Program-made: the position numbers and the translations under genes
The notes under the pieces: generated by a model
Databases searched by the model: none
Told to the model about the DNA's origin: nothing
The model's input: only the letters and a program-made list of their open reading frames with translations
In this document: one piece after another, positions 6,377 to 64,000 of the stretch
How the letters are laid out: every line of letters starts with the position of its first letter
Numbering within the stretch: position 1 is the first letter of the stretch
Assembly: GCA_963575745.1 (NCBI GenBank)
Contig: CAUYUJ010019370.1
Coordinates: 194,161 to 258,160 of the forward strand
Length of the DNA: 64,000 nt
Direction of reading: 5' to 3'
Source of the DNA: Prorocentrum cordatum
Taxonomy: Eukaryota > Sar > Dinophyceae > Prorocentrales > Prorocentraceae

Positions 6377-9300
6377 CCCGTTTCAGCACACCTCTCACAC
6401 GCTTCGTGGCCCCATAGGGAGCTCCACCGAAGGCCCCAGTGCCACCGCCCGCATGCGTCACCCACGCCCATTCCGGCACACCCCTCACACGTTTCTTGGC
6501 CCCATAGGGCGCTCCACCGAAGCCCCCAGTGCCACCGCCCGCATGCGTCACGCACACCCATTCTGGCACACCCCTCACACGCTTCGTGGCCCCACAAGGA
6601 GCTCCACCGAAGGCCCCAGTGCCACCGCCCGCATGCGTCACGCACACCCCTTTCGGCACACCCCTCACACGTTTCGCGGCCCCATAGGGAGCTCCACCGA
6701 AGGCCCCAGTGCCACCGCCCGCATGCGTCACGCACACCATTTTCGGCACATCCCTCACACGCTTCGTGGCCCCACAGGCACCGTTTCGGCACACCCTTTA
6801 CACGCTTCGTGCCCCATTCGGGGGCTCCACCGACGGTCCCTGCGGCACCGCCCGCATGCGTCACGCGCACCCACTTCGGCACACCCATCACACGTTTCGC
6901 GGCCCCATACGGAGCTCCACCGAAGGCCCCAGTGCCACCGCCCGCATGCGTCACGCACACCCATTTCGGCACACCCTCACACGCTTCGTGGCCCCATAGG
7001 GAGCTCCACCGAAGGCCACAGTGCCACCGCTCGCATGCGTCACGCACGCCCATTCTGGCACACCCCCTCACACGCTGCGTCGCCCCACAGGCACCCGTTT
7101 TAGCACACCTCACACGTTTCCCGGCCCCATCGGGAGCTCCACCGAGGGCCCCAGTGCCACCGCCCGCATGCGTCACGCACACTCATGTCGGCACACCCCC
7201 TCACACGCTTCGTGGCCCCATAGGGCGCTCCACCGACGGCCCCAGTGCCACCGCCCGCATGCGTCACGCACACCTATGTCGGCACAGCCCCTCCGCATGC
7301 GTCGCGCACACCACTGTCGGCACACCCCTCACACGCTTCGTGGCCCCATAGGGCGCTCCACCGAAGGCCCCAGTGCCACCGCCCGCTTGCGTCACGCACA
7401 CCCATGTCGGCACACCCCCTCACACGCTTCGTGGCTCAATAGGGAGCTCCACCGAAGGCCCCAGTGCCACCCCCCGCATGCGTCACGCACACCCATTTCG
7501 GCACACCCCTCACACGTTTCGCGGCCCCATAGGGCTCCCCCGAAGTCCCCCCCAGTGCCACCGCCCGCTTGCGTCACGCACACCCATGTCAGCACACCCC
7601 TCACACGCTTCGTGGCCCACAGGGCGCTCCACCGCAGGCCCCAGTGCCACCGCCCGCATGCGTCAAGCACACCCATGTCGGCACACCCTTCACACGCTTC
7701 GTGGCCCCCTTAGGGACGGCGCTCCACGATGGTCCAGCAGGGCGCCCGCTCTCTTGCGTCCCGCACACCCATTTCGGCACACCCCTCACACGTTTCGTGG
7801 CCCCATAGGGAGCTCCACCGAAGGTCTCAGTGGGTGTGCCCGCATGCGTCCCGCACACCCATTTCGGCACAACCCTCACACGTTTCGTGGCCCCATAGGG
7901 GGCTCCACCGAAGGTCCCAGTGGGTGTGCCCGCATGCGTCCCNNNNNNNNNNNNNNNNNNNNNNNNNNNNNNNNNNNNNNNNNNNNNNNNNNNNNNNNNN
8001 NNNNNNNNNNNNNNNNNNNNNNNNNNNNNNNNNNNNNNNNNNCTCCACCGAAGGTCCCAGTGCCACCGCCCGCTTGCGTCACGCGCACCCATGTCGGCAC
8101 ACACCCTCACACGCTTCGTGGCCCCATAGAGCGCTCCACCGAAGGCCCCAGTGCCACCGCCCGCATGCGTCACGCACGCCCATGTGGGTACACCCCTCAC
8201 ACGCTTCTTGCGTCTACATGGGGCTCCACCGAAGGCCCCTGTGCCACTGCCCGCATGCGTCACGCAGACCCATTTCGGCGCACCCCACACACGTTTCGCG
8301 GCCCCATAGGGATTTCCACCGAAGCCCCAGTGCCACCGCCCGCTTGCGTCACGCACACCCATGTCGGCACACACGCTCACACGCTTCGTGGCCCCACAGG
8401 GCGCTCTTCTGAAGGCCCCAGCGCCACCGCCCGCACGCGTCACGCACACCCCTTACGGTTTAACAATACAACCCCCTCACACGCTTCGGAGGGCTCCTAC
8501 ATGGCGCTCCCCCCACCAACCGAAGGCCCCAGTGCCCGCGCCCGCATGCGTCACCCACACCCATTTCGGCACACCCCTCACACGTTTCGTGGCTCCATAG
8601 GGAGCTCCCCCGAAGGCCCCAGTGCCCGCGCCCGCATGCGTCACCCACACCCATTTCGGCACACCCCTCACACGTTTCGTGGCTCCATAGGGAGCTCCAC
8701 CGAAGGCCCCAGTGCCCGCGCCCGCATGCGTCACGCACACCCATTTCGGCGCACCCCTCACACGCTTCGTGGCTCCATAGGGAGCTCCACCGAAGGCCCA
8801 GTGCCACTTGCCCGCATGCGTCACGCACACCCATGTCGCACACGCCCGGCTGTTCTCGGCCTCGGTAGGGCCCTCCTTGGGGCCCCAGTGCCACCGCGCT
8901 GCTTGCGTCAAACACGCACACCCATGGCCGGAACACCCCCTCACACCTTCGTGGCCCCCATAGGGCGCCTCCCCGACGTCCCATGCCACCGCCCGCAGCG
9001 TCGCGCACACGACCCATGTTGGTACAACCCTCACACGCTTCGTGGCCCAAAATAAAGAAAACCTAAAGGCGCTCCACCGAAGGCCCAAGCGCCACCGCCC
9101 GCATGCGCCACGCACACCCATGTCGGCACTCCCCTCACGCTTCGCGGCCCCACAGGGCGCTCCACCGCAGGCCCCAGTGCCACCGCCCGCATGCGTCACG
9201 CACATCCATGTCGGCACACCCCCTCACACGCTTCGTGGCCCCATAGGGCGCTCCACCGAAGGCCCCAGTGCCACCGCCCGCATGCGCCACGCACACCCAT

Positions 9301-54384: not shown

Positions 54385-54420
<36 letters not shown>

Positions 54421-54510
54421 GCTTCTTCTATTCTCTGTGAGCAAGCTCCTGCTGTCTCCGCAGCTTCTCTGCCCAAGTGCCCCCCCGTCGGCCGCGCGTG
54501 CGGACGCCTT
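54201..54510. other. Upstream region of the retroelement; GT/AT run
   Basis: A (GT)n(AT)n run at 54384-54420 and a pyrimidine-AG stretch (CTGTCTCCGCAG) near 54465 precede the first ORF. No long terminal or split repeat was recognised, so the 5' end of the element is not defined. Confidence 0.5.
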
Positions 54511-55035
54511 ATGCAGGCGCTCGCACAAGCGGCTCTCGGAGGCGCTGGGGAGATCTTCTTCAGGGGGCTGCGGGCCGCGCTCTACGAGCGGCTCGTGTCC
54601 GCCCCCCTCTCTGTGCTTCAGGACCCAGGGCCTCCTGCACCGGCCTGGTCCATCCAGCAGGCGGACTCGTCCGAGGGTGAGGGGGCTTACTGTCCCCTCC
54701 CTTCGGCGGGTTCCGCCTGCCCCACCGTCTGCCTCGGGCTGGCGGTGGATCTGAGCGGCGGGGTCTCTCCCTGGCTGCTCAGCACGGTCGTCGCCCTCCT
54801 TTGGGTGACGGCCGCGTGCAGCGCCTGCGCAGGCTGCTGCTTCGGGCTGCTGGGCCCGCACGTGTGGCGGAGACTCAGGGCCTCCGTCTGGCCGCGCGGA
54901 GCGGTGCCTGCCTCCCTTGGGCAGGACCGCCGTGCGGCGCGAGCGCTGGCTTACGGGGTTCCGCCTCGGCCTCGAGCGCTCGAGCGGGCAGACGCCCAGC
55001 CTTCGGGGAGCAGCTCCCACGGCATCACCCATTGA
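54511..55035 (+). CDS. Retroelement ORF1: small protein with one membrane segment
   Basis: A 174-codon frame from the ATG at 54511. The same frame is open further upstream, but that part encodes the GT/AT run, so this later start is preferred. Residues around 90-115 include PWLLSTVVALLWVTAACSA and then CAGCCFGLL followed by an Arg-rich stretch, i.e. one hydrophobic segment with a basic flank, as expected for a single membrane helix. It ends in TGA at 55033-55035, and the next ORF's ATG uses the last base of that stop (TGATG). I do not recognise the family. The tight coupling to the Gag-like ORF suggests it belongs to the element, although chance openness in GC-rich DNA cannot be excluded. A membrane anchor for particles or replication complexes is a guess. 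Confidence 0.5.
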   Translation: MQALAQAALGGAGEIFFRGLRAALYERLVSAPLSVLQDPGPPAPAWSIQQADSSEGEGAYCPLPSAGSACPTVCLGLAVDLSGGVSPWLLSTVVALLWVTAACSACAGCCFGLLGPHVWRRLRASVWPRGAVPASLGQDRRAARALAYGVPPRPRALERADAQPSGSSSHGITH

Positions 55036-55037
55036 TG
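55033..55037 (+). promoter_or_regulatory. TGATG stop-start overlap
   Basis: The stop codon of ORF1 and the start codon of the Gag-like ORF share a base. In other eukaryotic retroelements and viruses this arrangement is used for termination-reinitiation. The use here is inferred. Confidence 0.55.
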
Positions 55038-56975
55038 GCCGAGCTGCCACCAGTCGGCGGAGGGCCTCTATGGCCCGAGCTCTACCCATTCGCGGCTCCC
55101 ACGGCTCGCGGCTACGCACGATGGCGTTTAGACGACGGCGACACCAGCTGGGCAGCTATCCCCCTCGCGTCTCGAGAAGGGGGCATCCTTCTGGCCCTGC
55201 CTGGCGCCTTTCGCCCTACGGCGGAGCTCGAGGCTGCCGAGGCGGGGGGTTTTGCTGGGATGATAGGCCCTTTCCAGCTAGTGGACGTCCAGCTCCAGGG
55301 GGCCGCTTCGCGGCCGCTCGCCACTACTGCATCCGTCCTCGTCGTGGATATCGAGGTTGCAGAGCTCGAGCTCGAGTCGCTTTACCCTCTAGAGTTCGGC
55401 GAGGACGCAGCCATCGTTCCCTTCGCCGAGGTGCGGGGCCGCGTCTATTGGCCTCATCCTTCAGGGGTTCGGGTGCTTCGCGAGGGTTACGCACGCTTGC
55501 ACGGCGCCCCGCCTACCGCAGGGGAAGAGCCGCTCCCAGGGGCCGATCGGGCTACTCCCTATCACTCTGCCGACGAGATGGAGGAGCCCGAAGGGTTCGC
55601 GGCCGACGAGGAAGCCGAACGCACGGCCCCAAGTGCGCGATCTCCCGCGGACGCTGGAGCGCCGCGCGGCCCGCCCGCGAAGCGCGCGGCCACAGCCGCG
55701 CCGCCACGGGTCGCGGGTCCCGCTCCGATCGCTCCTGGTGCCCCTGCGGCGGCTCTGGACGACGGGGCTCCTATGACTCGTGCCGAAGTAGCTGCCGAAA
55801 TGCGCGCTTTGCTTGCAGCCCACGCGGCCTCCACGATGGTCGGCCGACCCGAGCCGCTGGGCTCCGCTCCGGCTGCTCGGAGCGATCGGCCCGAGGTGCC
55901 TCAGCTTTTCAGCGACGAAGCGGTGCGCCTCGGGCTGGATCCTGCGGGGATCGAGGCCGCCCTGTCCCACGCGCCCGTGGCTCCACAGCGGGTCTCCGCG
56001 CGTCCCAAGGGTCCGACCTCCGCGCTGGTCTCGGCGTGGGAAAAGGCGCGCTCTCTTGCTGTCCCTCGGGCCCCTTCGTCCGGTTTCGGAACGATGGGTC
56101 CCCCGCCGCCACCTGGGCTAGCCCATCCCGCTGCGGCCGACGGCTTTGCCGAGGTGGGCGGCGCCGACGGGTCAGAGCCGCCCCATGCGGCCAATCCGAC
56201 GGACCTCAGCCTCATGCTACAGTGCCTGCACCAGTCCCTCCTTCTGCAGCAGGGGCGGGGCCATCGCCCAACCGTCCATCCGCTGCTGGGGACCCTGAGC
56301 GACTCAGCTCAATCTCCGCCCGCGAGTTCGGGCGACCCCGCGCCCGCATCGGCTCAGATGGGGGGCATTGCTCGGAGGCGCGAGTGGCAGCAAGCGCTGA
56401 TACAGCACGGCCCCGACGTGCGAGGGCTGATGAAGGAGAATTTGGCCCGCGTTCTGGGCGTGGAAGTCAGCGCCGTGACCCCCATGGCCATGCATCAGTA
56501 CTTTCGGGAGCACAGTCCTTTGGGGGCTCAGCCGACGACGCACGAGTTGTTGACGCATTTCGCCTTCCTCAGCGCCGAGCTGTGGCGGGCCTGCGAGGAG
56601 GGCAACCCCGAGAGAGTCCAGACTCTTCTGACGTGTCAGTGTATGTTCATCGACCAGCTGGCGGGGGACCGCGGCTATCTCGAGGCCGCCTGGTTCCTCA
56701 CGGGACTGGAGCCTCCCCCGTGTCGCGTGACCAGTCGTCACACGGAGCGCGAGGCCCAGACCCCGTTTTCACCCCTGGTGGATCCTCGCTGGCTGTCGGC
56801 GCAGGGCGAATACGTGAAGGAGCTGCAAGCATTTCGGGCGCGTCTCGACGCCGAGCGCGCCGACGCGCTCCCCAAGCATCCACCTCACCAGCCCAAGCAG
56901 CCCAAGGTTTCGAAGCAGCCCTTCAAGTCCCAGGGTGCTTCCAAGGCACCGAAGGCGGTGCCCAAGAAGGACTGA
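55035..56975 (+). CDS. Gag-like protein of a DIRS-like retrotransposon
   Basis: 646 codons from the ATG at 55035; the frame is also open upstream to 54801. The N-terminal third is globular-looking (LESLYPLEFGEDAAIVPF, then RVYWPHPSGVRVLREGYARL). The middle is an Ala/Pro/Asp-rich linker. The C-terminal part is predicted helical (EWQQALIQHGPDVRGLMKEN to LVDPRWLSAQGEYVKELQAF) and ends in a Lys/Pro-rich basic tail suited to RNA binding. No CCHC zinc knuckle is present, as is usual for DIRS-type Gag. The PFSPLVDPRW...YVKEL region resembles the C-terminal part of Gag-like ORFs I associate with dinoflagellate DIRS-like elements. Expected role: packaging of element RNA in a cytoplasmic particle. The pol frame overlaps its end at -1, with no evident slippery heptamer near the stop. 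Confidence 0.75.
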   Translation: MAELPPVGGGPLWPELYPFAAPTARGYARWRLDDGDTSWAAIPLASREGGILLALPGAFRPTAELEAAEAGGFAGMIGPFQLVDVQLQGAASRPLATTASVLVVDIEVAELELESLYPLEFGEDAAIVPFAEVRGRVYWPHPSGVRVLREGYARLHGAPPTAGEEPLPGADRATPYHSADEMEEPEGFAADEEAERTAPSARSPADAGAPRGPPAKRAATAAPPRVAGPAPIAPGAPAAALDDGAPMTRAEVAAEMRALLAAHAASTMVGRPEPLGSAPAARSDRPEVPQLFSDEAVRLGLDPAGIEAALSHAPVAPQRVSARPKGPTSALVSAWEKARSLAVPRAPSSGFGTMGPPPPPGLAHPAAADGFAEVGGADGSEPPHAANPTDLSLMLQCLHQSLLLQQGRGHRPTVHPLLGTLSDSAQSPPASSGDPAPASAQMGGIARRREWQQALIQHGPDVRGLMKENLARVLGVEVSAVTPMAMHQYFREHSPLGAQPTTHELLTHFAFLSAELWRACEEGNPERVQTLLTCQCMFIDQLAGDRGYLEAAWFLTGLEPPPCRVTSRHTEREAQTPFSPLVDPRWLSAQGEYVKELQAFRARLDAERADALPKHPPHQPKQPKVSKQPFKSQGASKAPKAVPKKD

Positions 56976-59900
56976 AGGCGCCTTTGGCGCCCGCCTCCTG
57001 GAAGGGTGGGCCTTCGCGGGGCCGGGGTACGCCGCCGCACGCAGACTGCACCGACGCTGTTACGGTTGCTAGGCGCGTTTGGGCACAGCGAGGGCGTGAG
57101 GGTAGGAATGCGCTCTTCCAGCGATGCTGTTGCGGCCCCGCAGGGAGGAGTACGTTCCGCCACCACGCCCTTCGCTCTGCTCCGAACCGCTTCTCGGATC
57201 CCTTCGGCCATTTTGGCCGACGCTTGCCTCAGTCGAGCGCGCCCTCCAGGGGGCCTGCAGCCCCTGAGGTTGGTGTCCCTGCTGGTGCCTGTTCTCCTTC
57301 AAGCACCCCTGCTGCTCTTGCCAAAGTCGCGCCATTCGTCGCTGACTTGTCTGCCTTGCTGCGCCTGTTCCCAGGCGCGAACATTGATATCACCCACTGG
57401 GCAGCAGCGCTGTCCCAGGTTGGGATGGGTGCTCGATGTTCTCTTGGATCTTTCTCCCGCTCATCTATGCGTGCAATGGACAGGGACGGCCCGTACCTTT
57501 TGGGGCCGCCTCCCCGCGATCCTTGGCCGTGCCCGCCTGCTCCACCTCTTGGTCCCCCGCCTGACGGCTTGTCGGCGAGGCGCAGGGAGCGCTGGAGACT
57601 GCGGCGCGCGGCGCGGACGCTCGCGCAGTATTCGGTTATTGCGTTGAACTGGCTCACCTTGGGTCACCCCAGCCTCGCTCCCGCCGAGGCTCGCGTCCGC
57701 GCCACGGTCTCGCCCTGCCAGGAGGGCGTCCGCACCCGTATCGAACGGTTGTGTCGGATCGCAGTTCGCCTCGCCCGTGGCGGCAAGAGCGACTTAGGTC
57801 GAGCCTTCGCCAAGTTCGACTCCACTGAGGTCTCGCTCCATGGCCTGGCCACCCATGTTGCAGCTTTGGAGGCCTCTTTCACCTCCTCTTCTTCCGTACC
57901 CGCCCCCATGCGGCACTGCCCGACCGGCGCTCCTCCTGTGCCTGGGTCGTTGGCGACTGCGGCGGCTTGGGACTCCACCCAGGCCGAGCCCTTCGATTTG
58001 AAAGTCAGGGCGTCTCGCATCAAGTGGGATTATTCGCCAGAGTTTGATCCCGTTCCCTTCCTCTCTGACGCTCGAGTCCGCGAAGCTTTCATCGATCCTG
58101 AGGTTATGCGGCTACCGGCATCAGAGTGGCCTGCTGGCCAGAAGGGTGCGCGCGTCCATATGGACCGCGCCGAGCTGTGGGCCCTACTCCAGAAGTGGGA
58201 TGCCTGCGGCGCCCTGTACCTGACTCCTGCTTCGGACCTCGCCTGGGATGAAGCCTGTGGAGCTTTCAGGGTACCGAAGGACAGCGATTACGACAGGCTG
58301 ATCCTGAACCCCACGGTCGTGAACAGCCGCTGTGCTTCAATTTCGTCCAGCACCCAGCGCCTTGGCCAAGGTTTCCTGCTGTGCCGTTTGGGGCTGGCAC
58401 CTGGGGAGTGGCTGGCAGTTTCTTGTGACGACCTACGGGAGTTTTACTATACTTTCCGCGTCCCCCCCGCGCGCGCCAGACGTAACGCCCTGCGCGTTCG
58501 CCTGCCATCCTCGCGTTTCAAGGCCTTTCGAGCCTGGCGCCCCGAGCTGGAAGGTGTGGATGTCGCGCCCTGCCTCAATGCTCTGGCGATGGGCGACAAC
58601 ATGGCTGTGGAGATTGCCAACTCTGCGCATGAAGGCGTCTTGCACAGCTTCGGGGCTTTGCGGCCTCACGAGCAGGTTGTCCACCGCTCGCCCTTCCCGC
58701 GGGGCCCGTTTGTCGAGATGCTGAATATTGATGACCATACAGGTTTTCAGAAGCTCTCGTGGCGTGGCTCCGCTCCTCGCCCCGACGACCCGTGTCGCCG
58801 TGATCGTGAGGTCTTTGCCGCCTGTGATGCGGGTTACCCGCGCGTGGGCCTGATACAGCATCCAGGCAAGCGCGCGCGCGGCGAAACGCACAAGGTGGTG
58901 GTGGGCGCCGAGGTGGAGGGGCGCATAGGCATCGTCTGCGCTCCTCTTGTGCGGACGGTGGCCCTGTGCAGGCTGACCCTGATCCAAATCTACCTCGGGA
59001 TCACCACCCGCTCCCTGCTAGCCTCTCTGGTGGGCTGCTGGGTCCAGGTCTTCCTCTATCGCCGCCCGCTGCTCGCCATCTTTACGCACGTCTACAACTT
59101 CTTGTCGCGCCTGGCAACCGAGGACGGCATCGAATACGACCTGCCCCCTTATGTTCGCGACGAGCTCCTGGCCTGCACCTTCTTAGCCTTTACGGCTATA
59201 ACCGACCTTCGGGCGCAGCCTTGCCCCGAGTTGTTCGGTACGGACGCGTCTCTCGGCTGGGGGGGCGTTGTCCGCGCTCCTATCAGCCCGCAGCTCTCTG
59301 CCGAGCTGTGGCGCAGATCGGAGCACGGGGGGTGGCACACGATTCTGCACAATCGGAGCCTCCTCGCCGTGCTCAGCCGCGGCGTGCCCTTGGGCCCTGA
59401 GCTCACCCAACTGCATCAGGACCTGGGGCTCCCTTCTATTGAGCCCCCCGTCGCGCCGCGTTGGGTCACCGAGCTATCAGAGGCGCTGCGCTTTCGGCTC
59501 GCGTACAAATGGGAGTTCCGCATGCCTCGTCACATCAACATCCTTGAGACAACAGTGTATAAGAGTCTGTGCAAATACTGCTGTGTTCGCCTCCCTGACT
59601 CTCGGATCCCCGTTCTCCTGGATTCAAAAGTGGCTTTGGGCGCGACCGCGCACGGGCGCAGCAGCTCTCCTGGTCTATCTCATGTTCTCTCGACCACTTT
59701 GCCCTATGTGATAGGAGGAGGTTTATATATGGGAGGCATGTACGTGCCCACGGACGTGCATAGGGCCGACGATCCCACGCGCAACCGCGCGGTGAGGCCC
59801 CCGTCCCGTGACCCTCCCGCCTGGTTAGTGGAAGCCGAGAGAGGAGAATTTACTCGCTTTGATTGCATCGCGTACGCCGACTCTCGCTCGCCATTCCCTA

Positions 59901-62900
59901 CCTGTCTCTGGGGCCGATTTGTTGCGCAGCTTGTGGCTCGAGGCCCTGAGGGGTTGCTCAGCCACCGTTGGGCGGCCGCCCCCCCCCTCCCGGTGGGTGC
60001 GGGCATGGCCGCCGACGCCGCCGGCGACGGCGCCCAGGGCGAAGCCCTCGACCCCTCGGGCGCCGCCGAGAGCGTCAGCGAAGCTGCTCTCGCCAGCGGA
60101 GAGCGTCGCGGGCCTCGCAACGCGCTCTTCGCTGACTGCGATCGGCGTCTCACATCCACAGCAGACGCCACGCCCAAAGCGTCTGCGTCCTCGGCGGGCG
60201 GCTCGCACGGCCCCGACCCTGTCGCCGCCAGCGCTGGTTCGGCTCCCCCCGCCGCCAAGCGTGCGCCGCCCCTGGCCCTCCGCTCCAAGGCCGCGGCGGC
60301 CCCTCCGCCTGCGATCGGGGGGGGCTCGTCGCGTGTCGGCTCGCGGGAAGCGCCAAAGGGGGCCACGGCTGCTACCCCCCGCGTCTTCCAGCGAGCGGCC
60401 AGGGTGAGCGCCTCTCGCCAGCTGCTTGGCGTCGTGGACGGGGCCTCGCGCAGCACCATTGAGGCCGCCTTCAGGCGCCAGTCCCTGGTCTGCCATCCAG
60501 ACAGGACTCCTGCACACTTGGGGGCCGACGAGCGAGCAGCCCGCGCGCTCAAGTGGAAGCAGCTCTGCGACGCCAAGTCAGTGCTGCTCCAGGCCCTCTC
60601 GCAGGCCGCCGCGCCGCCCGCCGCTCCTAGCACGGGCGGTGACGGTCCTGCCGCTCGCGCCTTCGCCCAGGCAAAAGCGGCAGGGAAGGGCGCCCGCAAG
60701 GGCAAGCTGGCTCCTGGGTCGGCCATGGCCCTTCAGGCGCTCGAGGAAGCGGTCTCTTCGCGGGTCGCCCTGGCGAGTGCCGAGCTGGCCCCTCGGGCTG
60801 CCCTCCCCGCCTCGGGTGCGCCTCTCCCAAGCAGGGTTTCGTCTGCCCTCGCGACGCGGGCGGCTGAGTCTGATGCCATCCTCGCCTCCGCCGTGTCGCG
60901 CGGCCGCGTGGAGCTCGACGCACTCCGCACCGCGCGTGCCGACGCCACCAGGCGCACGGTGCAGGCTCCAGCACGCGGCGAAGGCGAGCGTGCCGTCGCT
61001 CGTGCTGAGCTCGCGGAAGGGATGGCCGACCGCGCCTACTTCCGTCGCTTGCGCGAGGCCGCCAGTCGTGAGGCCGCGGGCTTGCCGCGTACGGCTCCCG
61101 TCCAGCTGGGTCGGGATTGGCGCAAAACTCTGCGCGCCGTCCTGCACAACGCTGAGGTCTCGACGGGCCTCGCCAACGCGGATCGCGCCGCTCGTGCTGG
61201 GGACGCCCCCGCGTCGTCTACTGGGCGCTCTCTGGCCGAGGTGGAAGCTGAGGACCCGCGCACCTTGGCGAGGCCTGCCGACGACCCAGCGTCCAGCTTC
61301 AGCCGTCGCGAGGGGCGCGCGGTCCGCGCCCGCCTGGGCCCGCGGGACGAGGCTGTCGAGGACCAGCCCAATCGCGGTGATCACGCGCCACACTCCGCCT
61401 CGCGCACGGGCGCCGCGCGCAACAAGCGCGCCAAGAAGCAGCGGCGAGCTTCGACGGCGGCGCTACCCGCCCCTGAAGAGGGAGCCGCCACGACGCCGGG
61501 CCGCAGGGCGCGTCGCACTGCTAATGCGCGTCGCTGGGCAGGCGCGGCACGCCCCAGCTCCGCCGCGGGAGTGGGCCCTCCACCGCGGAGCCGCAGCCCT
61601 GCCCGCAGCCGTACGCGGTCTCCGAACCCGTACGGGACTGATTACACTTCCCCCTCGGGAGGCTGCTCCTCGCCTCCCATCGACGTCTCGAGCGCGCCTG
61701 AGGAGCCGTCGGGGCCACCGGCGGGGGAGGCATCGGAAGGCCCGCACACTCCTGAGGGGTCTCCTCCAGCGAGCGCCCGCAGCCGCTCGAGAGCGGAGCC
61801 CGCGTGCGAGGAGGACTCACCGACGGAGCTCGAGGACGTCGTTTTGAGTGCCCTCACTGACTCCTCGGTGGACCTCGAGCGCGTCGTGGCGGGCCTTAAC
61901 CCTGAGGCCCTCCGCCGCTTGCAGGCGGCCTTCCCTCGCCGCGCGGAGGCCTCCCCGCCCGCCGCTCACGCTGCGGCTCGCAGCCGCTCTCGGGGCCGCG
62001 GCACGCGTGCTGGCTCCGAGACGCCGCGGCCCGTCCCCCCGCCGCCATCGCCACCCCGTCACCACTCTGGTGGGCGTGCGGCGTCGCGTTCCCGTGCGTC
62101 GCCTGGGCGTCGCGTGGTGCGCTCCCCTCGAGTCGCTCCGAAGCGTCGCCCGAGCCCCGCCACTTCGCAGCGGCCAGCCAGCTCCCGCGCGGACTCCGCT
62201 GCTCAGGCCCCTCCGACTTCGGTAGGCATGCGCTCTTCCAGCGATGCTGTTGCGGCCCCGCAGGGAGGAGGGCGTGCCGCCGAGAAAGGGGGGTCTTCGA
62301 GCGGCTTCGCGCTTGGTCGAGCTTCTGAGCCCGAGCTGCCTCTCAGCGGCTCTCACAGTGGTGACGCTGGAAGCGCCGCGGCTGCAGCCTTCGCAGCGCG
62401 GCGCACGGCCTCGGCGGCCGCTGAGCAGCCCTTGCCTCCAGGGGCCGCCAGCGCCCTAGCGTGGCGCCTCAACCTAGGCGGTGAGAAGATCACAGTGGTG
62501 AGGTGGGGACCCGCCTGGCAAGGTGCTTTCCAGAGCGCGGCGTCGTGGCTGAGGACTTTTGCACCCGCAGGGGCCGCCGAGCCTGAGGGCAAGGATGACC
62601 TGCACTGCCTCCTGCGGGCCTTGCACGCCTACAAGCGCCTGTTTCAGACAGGCGGCGCCGAGCCGCTTGACGAGGCCTCGTGGCTGCATCCTTACGTGGC
62701 CATCGTCGAGCCCGAGGCGATCCCCGCGGATGCTGACCTCCAGGCCATGGGGGCGGGCGCCATCCGTGGCATCGGGCTCGGCTCAAAGATCGAGCAGCGG
62801 CGGCGCGCGGGCAAACTGGCCTGCCTTTTCGACCTTCTGTACCACGTGCAGGACAGTCACGGCGCCATCCCAGCAGCGCTGTGGGGATCCCATTCCCCTC

Positions 62901-64000
62901 CGTCCGAGATCCTCGACGCCTTCGCGGAGGTGGTGCCCGTGCCACATCATTCGGGCCTCACGTCCTCGGCAGCTCGTTCCGAGCTTGCCGAAGCAGCCGC
63001 AGCTGCGCGTGCCGAGCCGCGCCCGCCTTTTGACTGGCCGACCCTCGAGAGAGGGGACGCTCTGCCAGCCGAGATCGAAGCAGGGGCTCGCCGTGCCTAC
63101 CGTAACATGGGCGGGTCCTTCAGCTCGGCGCGGGCGATGCTGGCGGAGGCGTCGGGGTTCGAGACCGACGGGCGGGACGCCCTCGTTCCGCCCTTCTACG
63201 CGTCCAGGCGCAGGAGGGCCGCCACGGTGATCAGCTCTCCAAGCCCTGGCCGCCCTGCGCTCATCCTGTGGTGCGTCTGCGGCCTCTGCATCTCTCTGGG
63301 AGCCGCGGCGCCGACCGCAGGCCAAGGGCTTAGTCGGGCTGCGCCGTCCGCGCCCGCTCGCCCTCCGCGCACTCCCTTTGTGCGCGATTCTCACCTCACC
63401 TCCGCGTATCTCGACCGTCGCTCGAGATCGATTGATGCCTTCGAGCTGTGGTTAGCAGAACACACTGGCGTGCCACCCGCCACACTTTACCGAAGCGGGA
63501 TACTTCTCGCTCGTTTCCTCGCGACCTTCGGCGTGTGGCTTCATGATGCAGGTTTCCCTCATTATATTTTGGTCCATGCCATCTTGGGAATCCAAAGCGC
63601 CCATCCGCATTGGAAGGCCTTTCTGACAGAAGCTTGGGACGTAGCGAAACAATGGAAGCTTGCGGAGCCGCCAAAGCTCCGTCCCCCCTTGCCACGCGCG
63701 CTGCTGCGCGCCATGGTCGGGCTCTGTCTCGCCTGGGACTGGCCTGTGATGGCGGCGCTGCTGCTCATGGGCTTCACGATGTTCCTCAGGCCTGGCGAAC
63801 TGCTGGCGTCACGCCGCTGTGACCTGTCGCTTCCATGCGACCGTCTCGAAGTCGACGGGGATGCTTTTCTTTCAATTCTTGTTCCAAAGACCAGAAGAAC
63901 GTACCCGACGCAACATGCTCGCTGCTCCGATCGGGGCACGGTGAAGATTTTGAGTCAAGTGTTTGGAAGGTTGGCTTCCACCGATCCTCTCGCCCCCTTC
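56975..64000 (+). CDS. DIRS-like pol: RT - RNase H - J domain - linker - tyrosine recombinase (3' partial)
   Basis: One frame stays open for 2,342 codons from the Gag stop to the window end; the first ATG is at 57425 and no start is certain. Counting from 56975: FRVPKDSDYDRLILNP (about 430), RT motif A DDLREFYY (485), motif B LAMGDNMAVEIA (537), motif C NIDDHTG (DD at 586). RNase H follows: FGTDAS (756), HINILE (E at 858), LLDSKVALGATAHGRSSS (880-898) and a VPTDVHRADDPTR end, the DIRS-type layout. A J domain covers about 1146-1210 with LLGVVDGASRSTIEAAFRRQ and HPD at 1174-1176. Then come about 800 residues of Ala/Arg/Ser-rich linker with RSRSPARSRTRS, a hydrophobic stretch (ALILWCVCGLCISLGAAA, about 2092), and a tyrosine recombinase with an SAM-like N-terminal half and FLRPGEL (R at 2272) and PKTRRT (K at 2305). 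The HxxR and Tyr motifs lie outside. RT and RNase H residues look intact, suggesting a young copy. Confidence 0.85.
57101..57161 (+). repeat. Internal direct repeat R, copy 1
   Basis: The first 50 bases match 62221-62270 with one mismatch (GGTAGG, ATGCGCTCTTCCAGC, GATGCTGTTGCGGCCCCG, CAGGGAGGAG), then weaker similarity to base 61. It lies 125 bp after the Gag stop. The two copies are 5,120 bp apart, which is not a multiple of three, so pol reads them in different frames. Confidence 0.93.
62221..62281 (+). repeat. Internal direct repeat R, copy 2
   Basis: Second copy, at the start of the region leading to the recombinase domain. In the pol frame it encodes GMRSSSDAVAAPQGGG; the same peptide would be read from copy 1 only in the Gag frame. 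Confidence 0.93.

Follow-up and report, generated by a model that had tools for sequence, protein, structure and literature searches.

A DIRS-like retrotransposon lineage in a dinoflagellate genome carries its own conserved J domain

We found that a DIRS-like retrotransposon in the window (the whole 64,000-nucleotide stretch analysed, all features being on its plus strand) carries a J domain at 60407-60604, in the same frame as an upstream divergent DIRS-type reverse transcriptase (RT)-RNase H and a downstream tyrosine recombinase. The J domain is real and fused in frame. A sequence-only reading had placed a J domain within the polyprotein of a DIRS-like element, and this was supported by an HMM match, by split direct repeats, by 11 of 11 long loci in the same genome and by more than 300 places matching a J-segment pattern. 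A DIRS-like lineage that encodes a conserved J domain of its own is a real variant, and no description of a J domain in a retrotransposon was found in the literature searched, which covered subscription papers thinly and does not show absence from print; the term DnaJ was not found in the accessible parts of PMC6338049 or PMC5890265, and the J families treated in those of PMC5670126 were all cellular.

The element with its right flank spans 54419-64799 and contains a single Pol frame of 3191 codons, which runs from 54809 through the end of the window at 64000 to a stop at 64384. Its terminal repeats, with 100% identical copies, follow the order A1-ORFs-B1-A2-B2, the split direct repeat arrangement by which DIRS-like elements are recognised. 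Repeat A1 at the left element end (54419-54474) matched A2 just past the window (64552-64607; 2552-2607 of the right flank L031) at 56/56 positions by blastn, and B1 (64396-64553) equalled B2 (64642-64799) in the right flank at 158/158. Since both the A and the B pairs are identical, this result suggests a young insertion. In the other ten-kb loci, both B copies were found in 6 of the 8 loci compared out of 11, the alignments of L033 and L041 ending before B2. The same repeat order, A-coding-B-A-B, is given for SymbioDIRS in the accessible text of PMC5890265.

Upstream, a 764-codon open frame in another frame (54681-56972) is Gag-like by position only and had no significant match among the 20 relatives described below. 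Within Pol, the divergent DIRS-type RT (58001-59200, DD at 58730-58735) and the RNase H (59201-59947) were assigned by homology and by constraint, with BLASTP matches to all 20 relatives and 24 invariant alignment columns that include IDD and the acidic residues of the RNase H (conserved D 59243, E 59546, D 59621 and D 59768, with presumed roles). A low-complexity, fast-evolving linker N (59948-60406) then opens a block of about 1150 codons that is absent from the three closest relatives, P0001-P0003. The J domain within this block is followed by an Ala/Arg/Ser/Pro-rich linker with RS dipeptides (60605-62500) and by a globular-looking segment (62501-63250) for which databases gave no credible match; its one PDB match (E 0.73) was judged to be chance. 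A protein search with the C-terminal segment found 0 relatives among the 8000 candidates sharing most words. The first part of the tyrosine recombinase lies at 63395-64000. It is homologous to the C-termini of the relatives and contains LRPGEL at 63785, followed in the right flank L031 by LRGSGAT, RGRW and RYLQ, all four of which we take to be tyrosine recombinase motifs. Library matches to the recombinase were weak (PHROG integrase, E 0.03; Pfam integrase, E 0.048 in one of 20 alignment members). Pfam gave no match to RT, RNase H or recombinase in the Pol of the window, and these domains were placed by homology to Symbiodinium-type polyproteins and by motifs; as far as the accessible text of PMC5890265 goes, Pfam likewise misses the RT of Symbiodinium DIRS elements. 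The recombinase part at 63395-64000 differed from the RT-RNase H in synonymous codon use (r 0.51, where equal blocks of RT-RNase H gave no value under 0.67), and its GC3 was lower although the element looks young. Elsewhere in the window, far from the element, a run of 100 N at 7943-8042 is probably an assembly gap. A candidate spliced-leader relic at 57208 was discarded as unremarkable, the 10-mer occurring 3 times in the window.

The J domain was identified by profile and control searches. The Pfam DnaJ model, the check that the sequence-only reading had called for, matched a 97-residue slice with E 2e-7 and 31.5 bits (cut-off 27.8), and matched the whole 2300-residue translation with E 2.3e-5 and 24.8 bits, under that cut-off. 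NCBIfam DnaJ matched the J segment with E 8.5e-5, far under the model's full-length cut-off. When the slice was scrambled (one reversal and six shuffles), 0 of 7 controls matched any Pfam family, and 0 of 4 open reading frames from other frames of the same region matched in a domain search. In addition, the frame was free of stops over 1149 codons, where 300 shuffles gave 12.3 stops on average and never fewer than 4. The best PDB matches, over helix I to HPD, were the cellular J-domain proteins RabJ, human HSP40 (phmmer E 8e-4) and Williams-Beuren region 18 protein (E 1e-3), all of them host proteins. A search for the donor with J alone against 2362 candidate proteins of about 412-1312 residues returned none at E ≤ 10.

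The landmarks of the domain were located where they had been read from the sequence, in a frame open from 54809 to the end of the window: LLGV at 60422, helix II with AFRRQ at 60467, HPD at 60494-60502 and helix III, LKWKQL...AKSVLL, at 60548-60589. In an alignment anchored on HPD, the equivalents of DnaJ Leu10, basic residue 26 and Leu57 are kept as L1109, R1125 and L1162 of the 2300-residue translation, Tyr25 is replaced by Phe and Phe47 by Trp, Tyr7 by Arg, helix IV Asp59 by Gln, and QKRAA by an Ala-rich run. The loop after HPD is about six residues longer than that of DnaJ. According to the accessible part of PMC1906734, Leu10, basic 26, HPD and Leu57 are important for DnaJ function, and helix IV has been proposed to be non-essential.

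Copies of the J domain were searched for in the same genome, of 4,128,499,153 bases in 21,875 contigs. The best 150 matches, scored from 958 candidates, all covered 87/87 residues with at least 93% identity and 0 stops, and 62 of these 150 sit in frames of at least 3000 residues, some of which cross runs of N. With HPD masked, the J-segment pattern occurred at 326 places, and with the HPD codons fixed at 325, whereas the reversed pattern gave 0. HPD was intact, with 0 stops, in all 79 distinct J copies, so that the refuting case named in the sequence-only reading, HPD in this one copy alone, does not apply. The equivalents of Leu10, basic 26 and Leu57 were likewise invariant in the 79, while the residue before HPD varied (VYHPD in 68, VCHPD, the form of the window, in 10 and VFHPD in one). 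The HPD codons did not vary even at synonymous sites; because the copies are young, their invariance is partly due to recent descent. RT, RNase H, J, a segment of the 62501-63250 type and recombinase followed one another in this order in 11 of 11 ten-kb loci, with the RT partly matched in L040, the recombinase partly matched in L041 and L042, and runs of N in three loci. Among the fetched loci, L003 and L004 duplicate L032 and L033 and were excluded, L007 corresponds to the window, whose own sequence took its place in the pN/pS analysis of the 79 copies, and L031 is without J. Since these copies had been found through J, a reverse check was run from the recombinase: among the 46 recombinase matches on contigs within the J-pattern listing, taken from the best 150 of 4612 candidates, 45 were preceded on their own strand by the J-HPD pattern at a distance of 2.9-3.2 kb, and the 46th had it 5.5 kb upstream. 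More distant recombinase families without J may exist in this genome beyond those best 150 of 4612.

Selection was examined by pN/pS, calculated as Nei-Gojobori proportions over haplotype pairs, which are not independent. For J, pN/pS was 0.112 (codon bootstrap 0.046-0.217; 79 copies, 26 haplotypes), well below 1, the outcome that the sequence-only reading had set as a check; these copies were picked by J similarity (best 150 of 958 candidates), which lowers the pN of J. In the same J-selected copies, the neighbouring parts gave 0.061 for the RNase H end, 0.349 for linker N and 0.194 for linker C. Frameshifted and short copies had been dropped (4 and 1 for the RNase H end, 8 and 0 for linker N, 0 and 0 for J, 6 and 1 for linker C), and stops were present in 5/74 kept copies of the RNase H end, 1/72 of linker C and 0/79 of J. 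In the window plus the 11 long loci, pN/pS was 0.037 for RT, 0.051 for recombinase, 0.087 for RNase H and 0.096 for J, against 0.399 for linker N, 0.171 for the first C linker, 0.204 for the segment 62501-63250, and 0.244 and 0.322 (five copies only) for further linkers; from this set RT lost 1/12 copies, the linker segment lC3 7/12 and the recombinase 2/12. The pN/pS of J was lower than that of linker N (permutation p 0.003), its difference from linker C fell short of significance (p 0.13), and when variable codons were counted, Fisher tests did not separate J from either linker or from RNase H. Going by point estimates, no other part of the captured block is as constrained as J. Overall, the constraint on J is close to that on the enzymes, with some of the comparisons not reaching significance.

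The element also contains a pair of hairpins of about 100 nt, one in the spacer before RT (57081-57181) and the other inside the coding linker of the J block (62201-62301), which have an exactly identical, invariant 25-nt tip. All 12 elements examined (the window and L032-L042) have the pair, at a spacing of 5120-5239 nt. Their flanks differ in sequence yet pair, as well or better in only 0/200 shuffles for copy 1 and 11/200 for copy 2. With the copies in register, 11 of 34 base pairs were changed on both sides between copies, compared with 0 of 40 within either copy. Rfam and tRNA searches gave no match, and the hairpin pattern had 0 matches in viral contigs. The hairpins look like a duplicated cis-acting RNA signal, a candidate for packaging, dimerisation or protein binding.

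A whole-polyprotein search returned 20 relatives (P0001-P0020), some of them labelled Symbiodinium by source, among the 8000 candidates sharing most words, and 0 relatives in viral contigs. RT/RNase H was 36-45% identical to that of P0001-P0003, and the recombinase 32-35% identical. The spacing between RNase H and recombinase was about 20-32 residues in these three relatives and about 1150 in the window. The DnaJ profile matched one of 20 alignment members, that of the window itself, and phmmer found no J domain in P0020, which lies outside the alignment. Within the same genome, RT and J occur together in all 11 long loci, and none of the 20 public-data relatives shows a J domain; as far as seen, the J domain is lineage-specific. 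A methyltransferase-like domain was present in 17 of the relatives (E < 1e-6), 12 of which built the profile, and was weaker in P0015, P0019 and P0020, the last of which carries PF00145 in its record. In P0001-P0003, P0009 and P0011 this domain is embedded in RNase H; in P0004-P0008, P0010 and P0012 it stands between RNase H and recombinase. Its probable identity as a methyltransferase is drawn from motifs, a PHROG match (E 0.02 in 2/20 members) and published precedent. In the window, the 12-relative profile gave nothing credible in six frames (best E 0.55; the last 384 nt of the frame lie outside the window). The J block thus occupies a site at which the group houses accessory cassettes, the methyltransferase-like cassette of the relatives being found either at this junction or within RNase H. 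Ten of the 20 relatives (P0001-P0008, P0010 and P0012) have GDxExNPGP or GEAx(N/H)PGP, an xPGP-type motif, directly before the recombinase; as the 2A-like motif in the RNase H-recombinase gap, two of P0001-P0003 carry GDxExNPGP and the remaining one carries GDIEPHPGP. Such a motif would presumably split Pol from the recombinase in these ten, and it is absent before the recombinase in the frame of the window. Residues 1103-1200 of P0012, ahead of the methyltransferase-like domain, matched Tet/JBP dioxygenase weakly (E 0.063, 13 bits; PHVDRNN ... PWKGTR), a match not seen in the other 19. This element may pair a methylating with an oxidising enzyme.

The J cassette has been captured and is kept under constraint, and J is very likely a functional, selected part of the element. 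We consider it probable, as the best explanation of the data, that a DIRS-like lineage took up the cassette and retains it as a means of recruiting host Hsp70. That J acts through Hsp70 is in itself likely; that Hsp70 has the polyprotein or ribonucleoprotein of the element itself as its client is favoured by a little. The cassette would have entered Pol at the RNase H/recombinase junction, and its HPD face would dock host Hsp70 onto the polyprotein in cis. Cycles of Hsp70 binding may then help the RT-recombinase fusion to fold or to become active, or may remodel the complex that it forms with RNA, with J acting in cis on fused RT-RNase H and recombinase that have no 2A-like motif between them. 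Somewhat better than evenly supported is the reading that a recently active lineage swapped a methyltransferase accessory for a built-in Hsp70 co-chaperone, giving a self-chaperoning 3191-codon RT-RNase H-J-recombinase protein that lacks the 2A-like break seen in its closest relatives. Recruitment of Hsp70 could also serve ends other than RT folding, such as particle disassembly, nuclear delivery of cDNA or a link between transposition and the heat or chaperone state of the host. These are close rivals of RT folding: the constrained J with intact HPD fits them, the J domain of SV40 large T antigen takes complexes apart (references cited in PMC7356129), and nothing separates such roles from RT activation; we regard them as possible, on the unlikely side.

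The remaining explanations deny J a role with Hsp70. A J-like fold that now serves only for structure or dimerisation would account for the lost equivalents of Tyr7 and helix IV, for the longer loop and for a lone domain within a long low-complexity block, but HPD and the basic residue of helix II, which serve Hsp70 binding, are invariant in 79/79 copies, and this makes such a use improbable. That host J-protein sequence is carried as a passenger without function would suit the lack of J in the 20 relatives and the abundance of J domains in dinoflagellates, with 408 gene families in Symbiodinium (accessible part of PMC5670126). A passenger would not, however, be expected to show pN/pS of about 0.1 beside 0.35-0.40 in the adjoining linker N, nor to keep frame and HPD across copies, and we consider it very unlikely; a passenger in a single copy is ruled out by the multi-copy J matches. 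The GC-rich, Ala/Arg-rich sequence has long open frames in other frames too, and the full-length Pfam score falls below the cut-off, as chance resemblance or an assembly chimera might produce. Against this, the scrambled controls did not match, the same architecture occurs on many contigs, and the absence of stops lies beyond the shuffle minimum; a chance match and a misassembly were both rejected on the controls and the multi-copy architecture, and such an origin is scarcely credible.

If J works in this way, the element would be the first retroelement known to us to encode its own Hsp40 function. Chaperone dependence of RTs is known to us mainly from hepadnaviruses, with a host-derived co-chaperone. 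An RT polyprotein with its own conserved J domain would make the role of Hsp70 for a retroelement testable by a single HPD change, and the accessory site of dinoflagellate DIRS-like elements accepts cassettes beyond methyltransferases. Polyomavirus T antigens likewise hold a selfish element's own HPD-bearing J domain in cis with a nucleic-acid protein, but they belong to a DNA virus, with an N-terminal J domain and no known RT or recombinase. Hepadnaviruses are not known to encode a J domain, and their RT depends on the Hsp70 system through a host co-chaperone in trans, whereas the element of the window encodes J in cis. The need of the hepadnaviral RT for Hsp40/Hsp70 in trans is the subject of two papers cited in PMC7356129 (Beck and Nassal 2003; Stahl 2007). 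With SymbioDIRS-Dnmt3 and dinoflagellate DIRS-like elements, as far as the accessible text of PMC5890265 describes them, the element has in common an RT-RNase H missed by Pfam, a tyrosine recombinase, A-coding-B-A-B repeats and an accessory domain fused to Pol; SymbioDIRS-Dnmt3 has its recombinase in a separate open reading frame, whereas here the recombinase lies in the Pol frame. Where most of the relatives have a methyltransferase-like domain and no J, the element of the window has the J block and no methyltransferase match within the window.
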